Positions 5,168 to 8,141 of a DNA stretch of 64,000 nucleotides are shown here, piece after piece. The translations under genes and the position numbers were made by a program. The stretch is from Neelides folsomi (lineage: Eukaryota; Arthropoda; Collembola; Neelipleona; Neelidae). Location: assembly GCA_034687125.1 (NCBI GenBank), contig JAQGBZ010000088.1, positions 1 to 64,000 on the forward strand. The letters run 5' to 3'. How positions within the stretch are numbered: the stretch's first letter is position 1; each line of letters begins with the position of its first letter. The notes beneath the pieces are model-generated. The model saw only the letters and a list, made by a program, of their open reading frames with translations, was not told where the DNA came from and made no database searches.

Positions 5168-5594
5168 TTAGCCTACAAAATTGTCCGGTGGGAGACCGAA
5201 AGAAAGGAAATCATTGCACCATTGGAACGTTTTCTCCTTATCGTTCTTGGTACAGCAGAATGGATATGCATTTCTAGAATTCGTCACCTTCGCACAACGT
5301 TGGCACAACTCGAGTCTGTCGTACTACATGTTCAACATCATTTCAATTAATTATAAATCTCTCAGCTTTTTGGAATAGTTCATAATAAATAAACTATTTA
5401 AAGATATTAGAGGGAAAGCTTATGGGAAAAAACCTTACATCGGTTTCACATAAGTCGATTTCTTCATTCGTCTTCTTCGTAGTTTCATTCTTGGAAGTGT
5501 CTTGGTGATAGGAGGGAGCCACATCTCCAATAGGCCTAGGCATCCCTTCCCCTTCGTCGACCAAGAGGAGTAGGAGGACGGACGAGAAGAGCAT
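5168..5594 (-). CDS. Small secreted six-cysteine peptide precursor, unrecognised
   Basis: Two coding exons on the minus strand: 5594-5439 (52 codons) and 5323-5168 (51 codons plus TAA). The donor is GAT|GTAAGG and the acceptor is CATGTAG; both junctions are phase 0. The start ATG directly follows a strong acceptor (GCGTTCTCTCACAG), so a non-coding upstream exon is expected. The 103-residue product begins with MLFSSVLLLLL, a short signal peptide. A polar linker with one N-glycosylation sequon (KNET) follows, then a cysteine domain with spacing C-x9-C-x2-C-x12-CC-x11-C. Conspicuous parts are LELCQRCAK, AYPFCC and WCNDFLSFG. No dibasic cleavage site precedes the domain, so the whole domain may be the mature product. 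It looks like a secreted peptide hormone or small extracellular ligand. I cannot assign a family, and no function is claimed. Confidence 0.7.
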
Positions 5595-8141
5595 CTGTGA
5601 GAGAACGCAAATAAAGTTGATGAGGGCAAGGAGGTTCAGTTTGGGGCTTAAGGTCTTGAAGGAAATGTCCCCCGTCAAAGAGAAAACCGTTTGTTAACAA
5701 CTACCCTCGTCATTCCTCAGTTTATCGACAATGAGCCTTTCACGTGCGACCCAAAGTCCAGATCGTGTTTTACATACCTATACCTATTAATCCTATTTTC
5801 CTCTTTAAAAGAATTACAGTAGCGATGTGGCAAGAAAAATGTCTCGGAGCGGTATTAAATTCCATATAACTCTACATAAGTAGTTCAGATGCCATAAATG
5901 CCATAAATTATTGATAATATTTAAAGCAGTCGAAGTGATAGCAGATGCCTCTTGGTATAAGGAATAGGTTGGAATAGCTGAAGGAAGTCTGGTACACACC
6001 TCCAAGCATGGAAGTATATAGGAATTATAAGAGATGGGAGAATGTTTGGTCGTTGCACATTTCCGCGTGGAATTCAGACACTTGTTTGTCTCTCTGGGTC
6101 AAACTAGGCGACACAGCTGAGAGGGAGCCGACAAGGGTCGCTTATCTGCTGCTAATGAGATCCTATCACTTCCCTCCACGCCTTAACCTATCCGAGAAGT
6201 CAATCTTCCACAACTCAGCATTCTTCACCCATGACCAGACGGCCAATTAATATATTCCGAATTCCTCATGACTCAAACATTGTTTCATTGTGGTTCGTAG
6301 AACGGGAATGCGAAAACAAAATCGTTAGCAATCCTCAAAGTTTCGTAATTGGGCTCGTGGGTTCCTCGTGGAATGAGAAATATGACATTGTGTCATCCTG
6401 CTAAAAATATATAATATAAGCTATTACTCTCTCTATGGATTTGTAATGATGGATAAGAATCTTGAGGACACTTGTTTCAAAATGCATGGCTTAAGATGTA
6501 AATGTCATAAATTGTTGAATTATTCAACTTGTTCAATTTAAACTTCTAATGTTTTCAAGTCTCTCATAAATTCTTTTGTATATCATGTCTACAACAATTT
6601 AATTCTCTGGTGTAAAATGTAATTGGTTTTTTGCCTTTCGTCTTAAATATGTAATTCTCCATATATCTTCTAGTTATTGCTGGTTTTTATCCTGGCCTTT
6701 AACTTCTAACTCTGAATACTTAAAAATTTTAACCCTTAGAATAAAAGTCAACATGAAAAAAATTGTAGAGTTAACGATGTAGAATGTACTTATTTGGGTG
6801 CATGGTGGCATGTTTTGACCATTTGTGCAAACAAATCTATTAGTATTTATGTAGACTGTCCTTTGATTACGATTAAGCTTTAAAAATGAATATATGGTAT
6901 GTAAGTTTATACTATGTTATTTATATTGTACAAATGTAGTTTTTATTAGTATGTAGTGTATTTTAGTATTTATTTTAGGTTTAAGGAAGTATGGTAAATA
7001 CTATACTCACATGTTATTTAAAACACCTTCAAAATCTCGACCCATTTGAAAATACTTTTTAATTCCATCTTTAACCTTTTGAGAGCATCAGAGTCAGAGA
7101 TTAAGTAAAAGGCTAGCAAATAGACAACTTAAAGTCGGAATTTTCTTAAGAGGGAACTCGCAATTCGGATTTTATTATTAATGACCTAAGTACGTATTTA
7201 CATATTTGCATGTGCCCCTTCTATGCTTAGATGCGTGCAATATTTTTTGTAATGTATAGAACTCTTGTATGGAAAACGCTTAGTTTGACTATTTTATCTC
7301 TAATTTTCTAATCTTTTAAATATTAATTGCGGAGAAAGTCATGCTTAGCCTAAAATGCATAAATAAATCTCTTCATACTTTTACATGAAAGCGAAAGTAC
7401 GCTTTTACACGAATTCTAAATAAGAACGTCAAAGCTTTTATCTTCCTTGTTTTGTACCTACATAGGTTCGACAGTATCTTATTATCGGGTATTTGTGTTA
7501 AATGTGATATTCATTCCAAATATACCAATATGAAAAATAACTTTTGCAAGAAAAATTATAAAAAGACTATTTTGTCTAAATATCTTTAATTCGAGTTATA
7601 GTGAAGAAATATTATAGATACTGCATTAGTTAATAGCACGTTATTTTATATGATAACAAAATGTTCTGCTTCGTCAAATATTTAAATAATTAATTTTTGA
7701 ATTTTAAAACGTTCCTTCTTATAAATAGTGCATTTTGAATTAATTACTCACCTAAATTTGTTTGAAGAAGCAAAAGTTAATAAAGCTATTTATATTTAAA
7801 AGTAAAAAGTTAAAAATAATAAATAGCTAGATTATAAATTATATATATATAAAGATAATTTTAGCGGATGATGATTTAACATTCAAGCCTAGCTACCTTG
7901 AGATAATTATATTATATTTTGAGATAGCGTGAGAGCGGTCCTTTCAAGTTATCAGACACAGATTTTCTTATCATCCATTCCCCGAAGAGTGGAATGGGTA
8001 CATTTTAAGATAGGCTTCAACACCGGGCGTAAATGGGCAAGTGAGGACAAACAATGGGTAATTGAGTCGATTAAGTGAATCTCATCTGCCCCTCTTTTAC
8101 ATCACAACACCAGAATTGAATAGAGAAAATATTGGGACTTA

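Follow-up and report, generated by a model that had tools for sequence, protein, structure and literature searches.

Does a short, intron-split reading frame on the minus strand of a collembolan contig encode a secreted peptide, or do two unrelated open stretches merely happen to fit together? The question is raised by positions 5168 to 5594 of a 64-kb stretch of Neelides folsomi DNA (hereafter the window), in which an initial annotation had proposed that a hidden gene of two exons encodes a secreted peptide with six cysteines. In our assessment, the odds lean slightly towards a genuine orphan gene that encodes a secreted, cysteine-rich peptide, apparently a single-copy arthropod gene with at least two coding exons.

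Gene model and splice sites

When exons 1 and 2 (Table 1) are joined at 5439/5323 in phase 0, they form, as annotated, an open frame of 103 residues on the minus strand, and its translation contains the proposed cysteine spacing C-x9-C-x2-C-x12-CC-x11-C. The annotated signal peptide corresponds to a hydrophobic start with a best 10-residue mean of 2.86, as judged from hydropathy, and the annotated glycosylation to a predicted NET sequon. The GC contents of the three segments fit an exon-intron-exon structure, which counts in favor of a gene; for reference, 25 introns inferred in this genome have a mean GC of 0.373 and their exon flanks 0.501.

Table 1. Features of the candidate locus (window positions)
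Feature	Position	Strand	Description
Exon 1	5439..5594	-	ATG, hydrophobic signal sequence, polar linker and C1; residues 1-52; codon log-odds 0.39; GC 0.487
Predicted signal peptide	5544..5594	-	Residues 1-17; cleavage point placed after Gly17 by eye, as a guess
NET sequon	5481..5489	-	Residues 36-38; possible N-glycosylation, read from the translation
Lys-Lys	5472..5477	-	Residues 40-41; possible dibasic cleavage site 8 residues before C1; putative processing
Intron	5324..5438	-	115 nt, phase 0, GT-AG; donor score 7.48, acceptor score 3.94; GC 0.261
Exon 2	5168..5323	-	C2-C6; protein ends in ...DNFVG; stop codon TAA, 5170-5168; codon log-odds 0.09; GC 0.442
C-terminal Gly103	5171..5173	-	Possible amide donor; putative amidation, from the translation
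Acceptor-like TTATTTGCGTTCTCTCACAG directly before ATG	5595..5614	-	Scores 7.17, a level reached by 2.5% of the 3728 AG sites

The splice sites had been described as good and strong, and this holds for the donor only. The donor (GT at 5438-5437, with GAT before the junction and GTAAGG after it) is equalled or exceeded by 3.0% of the 2908 GT sites on the minus strand of the window, whereas the acceptor is ordinary, with 26% of 3728 AG sites scoring as well or better and a position at the 24th percentile among the 25 inferred introns; these percentiles are approximate and partly circular, because the introns were admitted only above minimum scores. A first splice model, self-trained, placed the candidate acceptor above only 1.4% of 141 acceptors, which counts against a gene, but this model had drifted to noise and was replaced by the 25 introns inferred with a consensus.

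The ATG at 5594 has a poor context (CAG directly before it), and this counts against a gene. On the other hand, a strong acceptor abuts this ATG, which makes an upstream exon likely and, together with the good donor, counts for a gene. Seven donors scoring at least 4 are present within 1500 nt upstream; from 5704 the frame would be extended in phase by MTR, splicing from 5817 or 7026 would supply longer starts, and those at 5777, 5999, 6228 and 7010 are associated with no in-phase ATG. The gene might be real but differ from the first model, either because an upstream coding or non-coding exon is spliced to 5594, or because exon 2 uses another acceptor, and the N-terminus or the C1-C2 loop would change as a result. 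The acceptor at 5308 would preserve the frame of exon 2 but scores merely 0.15, and the ATG at 5594 is the first one after an in-frame stop at 5696, which speaks for the original start. We consider such a different structure, which overlaps with the orphan-gene explanation, a serious possibility although short of an even chance. A two-exon gene whose product is a secreted peptide with six cysteines remains the most likely reading, and it probably has a further exon upstream that the annotation missed.

Comparison with chance expectation

To be counted in our scan, a place needed an ATG, a hydrophobic start, a donor and an acceptor, and its product needed a length of 80-160 residues with six or more cysteines. 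The candidate was the only such place in the window. As a null model, 1000 windows of 64 kb were simulated by order-2 Markov chains in 2-kb blocks. At least one hit was found in 15 of the 1000 at the candidate's own limits (~1.5%) and in 131 of the 1000 under looser limits (13%); a first small simulation gave a hit in 0 of 30 windows. The limits were chosen only after the candidate had been seen, which counts against it, and the initial annotation had been free to report anything, so the simulations provide moderate evidence. Its statement that such a structure is unlikely by chance was not confirmed as it stands, the probability being small but not negligible.

Real DNA was scanned as well, using the loose limits with a minimum of 70 residues. 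In 251,577 bases, comprising the window and additional loci minus nine that duplicated others or were mitochondrial, three places were reported: the candidate, a true eclosion hormone gene (EH2) with the right join, and a trefoil gene. The latter two loci had entered the scanned DNA through family searches. In the trefoil gene, the start and the first domain were correct, but a spurious intron was placed within an uninterrupted frame of 891 codons, so the scan can misjoin, and this counts against a gene.

Codon usage was compared with 63 training chunks from kinase exons, which have a mean log-odds of 0.28 (SD 0.18). Exon 1 lies above this mean, in agreement with coding, and exon 2 is weak and lies below it (Table 1). 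The antisense frame of exon 2 (5171-5323, plus strand) is also open and scores 0.20, higher than the sense frame, which again counts against a gene. Since the known EH1 gene of this genome scores -0.04 and the antisense frame 0.20, codon use does not decide the matter; the measure has little power at this locus.

These data bear on the explanation that no protein is made and that an intergenic region merely contains two unrelated open stretches which fit together by chance. The simulated hits under loose limits, the ordinary acceptor, the weak codon score of exon 2 and the failure to find relatives in the genome, in viral contigs and in prokaryote genomes (see below) all agree with it. It fits less well with the low number of hits at the candidate's own limits, with the GC contrast between exons and intron, and with the fact that in other real DNA the scan found only true secreted-protein genes. 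Overall, we find a chance join rather unlikely.

Searches for relatives and comparison with arthropod hormones

Searches of Pfam and of PDB sequences with the candidate gave no match at E values up to 10. NCBIfam yielded a single match, with the gyrase inhibitor YacG, which at E 0.14 lies well short of the cut-off and was taken as chance. The initial annotation had named no hormone or ligand family with this layout, and none was matched in these searches. Exon 2, searched against the genome (75.1 Mb in 840 contigs), gave no second copy at E values up to 10. The whole protein produced one weak match with E 0.058, located on contig 110; it contains two stops and, when read by eye, no cysteine pattern. 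Among viral contigs (11 pattern-matching stretches) and prokaryote genomes (66 stretches) no relative was confirmed, which is as expected for an animal gene.

That the DNA is from an arthropod, as annotated, is borne out by the genome, which contains 39 RR-cuticle matches, one ion transport peptide (ITP) gene of the CHH/ITP type and two eclosion hormone (EH) genes. The EH genes lie tail to tail (C83:36533-37456); the coding part of EH1 looks intronless, and EH2 has an intron between the first and second cysteine. The ITP gene (C67:40451-41054) ends in either of two alternative exons, giving ITP and ITPL, with exons read by eye; its mature peptide closely resembles locust ITP, which likewise favors an arthropod. 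In the window, a TMX1-like thioredoxin-related gene, recognized by eye from an exon encoding WCPAC, is located upstream at ~1145-2500 on the plus strand, and coding-like segments resume at ~8.1 kb. When ten neighboring segments were compared with Pfam at E values up to 0.1, one gave two HEAT/TOG-like matches below the cut-off and nine gave none. A 41-bp tandem repeat of 4.6 copies (132-321) shows coding-like frames on both strands.

Trefoil domains (PF00088) share with the candidate a CC doublet, a Trp-Cys at the last cysteine and about 9 residues between C1 and C2, but the third cysteine of the candidate is misplaced by ~7 residues relative to the trefoil framework. The genome has 69 trefoil profile matches at E values up to 10, none of them on the contig of the candidate, which itself has no Pfam match, and trefoil was rejected. 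As an observation in its own right, 67 of these matches exceed the family cut-off and they often occur in groups of two to four within open frames of ~800-1400 codons (contigs C206, C358, C449, C454, C532, C563, C632, C699, C756 and others), a trefoil protein family that is notable for an arthropod. Insulin, ICK, Kazal, Kunitz, EGF, pacifastin and other frameworks were compared by cysteine spacings and were also rejected. The framework sharing most cysteine distances with the candidate was CHH/MIH (6 of 15), followed by pacifastin (4 of 15).

According to PMC7560641 and PMC8541221, members of the CHH superfamily have six invariant cysteines that form C1-C5, C2-C4 and C3-C6 disulfides. The candidate also has six, four of which (C2, C3, C4 and C6) are in register with CHH/ITP. 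The candidate shares C2-x2-C3-x12-C4 with the genome's ITP gene and its two EH genes, and its distance from C4 to C6 is the same as in ITP. C1 and C5 are displaced, with C1-x9-C2 instead of x15 and C5 directly after C4 instead of x3, and these two are disulfide partners in the superfamily (PMC8541221). By the six invariant positions, the candidate does not qualify as a CHH superfamily member, and it has no PF01147 match at E values up to 10, whereas the ITP of this genome matches at 4.4e-31. The agreement in 6 of 15 distances has a P of 0.0016 when CHH is taken alone, which rises to 0.028 once 22 frameworks are allowed for, and as good an agreement is reached by 7 of the 120 permuted loop orders.

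Other features were compared in the same way. The Type I CHH precursor, as described in PMC8541221, has a signal peptide, a precursor peptide, a cleavage site and an amidated end, and the candidate has a hydrophobic start, linker, Lys-Lys and C-terminal Gly that would resemble this if they are indeed processed. With respect to the CHH core given in the same paper, the Phe three residues before C6 falls on Phe49, whereas the second core aromatic is an Asp and the Val53 position an Asn. ITP is split by an intron just after C4 (by eye), whereas C2-C6 of the candidate are in one exon. In alignments in which the cysteines were held in place, similarity was not significant for ITP (p 0.54 global, 0.17 anchored), and the p values were 0.59 and 0.23 for ITPL, 0.037 for EH1 and 0.65 for EH2. 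This test finds close relatives only, since ITP against EH1 gave 0.55 and EH1 against EH2 none of 2000.

Eclosion hormone (PF04736) was compared as well. The candidate has its intron between C1 and C2, as EH2 does (by eye), but in phase 0 instead of phase 2, and it differs in C1-x9-C2 (x3 in EH) and in having adjacent C4 and C5. Its C5-x11-C6 corresponds to that of a tick EH by the cysteine positions printed in PMC10490126. No PF04736 match was found for the candidate, and only 3 of 15 cysteine distances agree, so it does not qualify as an EH.

Given only exon 2, which carries five of the cysteines, and no alignment, AlphaFold predicted helices at 3-14, 19-25 and 29-42 with a mean pLDDT of 74.2. 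The antisense translation of exon 2, used as a control, gave one long helix at 92.8, which counts against a gene, and since the control exceeds the candidate this confidence is no evidence. Foldseek returned five PDB matches at E values up to 10, none of them significant and none a CHH chain, although the PDB contains three CHH-superfamily sequences; the best was k-Ssm1a (E 5.8), a centipede venom peptide. In the exon 2-only model, the helices agree with the CHH core at 31 of 45 positions when the cysteines are in register; a shift of two residues raises this to 39 of 45, and 11 of the 45 rotations, the register included, equal or better the register.

Could the candidate be a divergent helical hormone of the CHH/ITP-EH class with a moved C1-C5 bridge? 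The shared C2-C4 spacing and C4-C6 distance, the number of CHH distances taken alone, the Phe at the core position, the Type I-like layout and the three predicted helices of exon 2 are consistent with this. Against it stand the corrected P value and the permutations, the alignments with ITP, EH1 and EH2, the Asp in place of a core aromatic, the Foldseek matches, the lack of an intron after C4 and the negative Pfam result, and we judge it improbable. Just as improbable is the reading in which the candidate would represent a third CHH/ITP-EH branch whose C1-C5 disulfide slid along the chain while C2-C4 and C3-C6 remained fixed, making it an undescribed arthropod hormone that might bind an orphan membrane guanylate cyclase as its ligand. 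In Drosophila, ITP acts through the guanylate cyclase Gyc76C (PMC12611267), and a guanylyl cyclase also serves as the receptor for EH (PMC6660194).

Possible processing and role

If the orphan gene is real, the following route can be envisaged from the translation. The hydrophobic start would direct the product to the secretory pathway, and the polar and possibly N-glycosylated linker would be cut at Lys-Lys. This would release a domain of ~62 residues with three disulfides, possibly amidated at Gly103, which would act outside the cell, most likely as a peptide ligand. A secreted, processed peptide suits the layout, given the hydrophobic start, the sequon, the Lys-Lys, the six-cysteine domain and the C-terminal Gly. 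Expression, splicing, processing, disulfide formation and the ligand role are all predicted from sequence, and the ligand role in particular is doubtful.

The initial annotation had suggested an arthropod peptide signal, and the hydrophobic start, the dibasic site and the C-terminal Gly do suit one, but a peptide for defence, secretion or structure fits nearly as well. Cysteine-rich secreted peptides often serve in defence, saliva, venom or cuticle, and in such a peptide the disulfides would provide stability. The absence of similarity to ITP beyond the cysteines and the top, albeit non-significant, fold match to k-Ssm1a agree with a non-signal role of this kind. Effector families are often multi-copy, whereas the candidate was found once in the genome, and Lys-Lys and the C-terminal Gly would suit a processed ligand. 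A non-signal role appears rather unlikely, and the hormone role and the relation to CHH/EH may serve as leads only.

If the orphan gene is real, it would add a small secreted peptide that homology searches miss, because its coding sequence comes in short, separate pieces and our Pfam, NCBIfam and PDB-sequence searches do not recognize it. As one more orphan secreted peptide it would be of modest interest. If it were CHH/EH-like, it would mean that a disulfide characteristic of a major class of arthropod hormones can shift, and an orphan guanylate cyclase would gain a candidate ligand.
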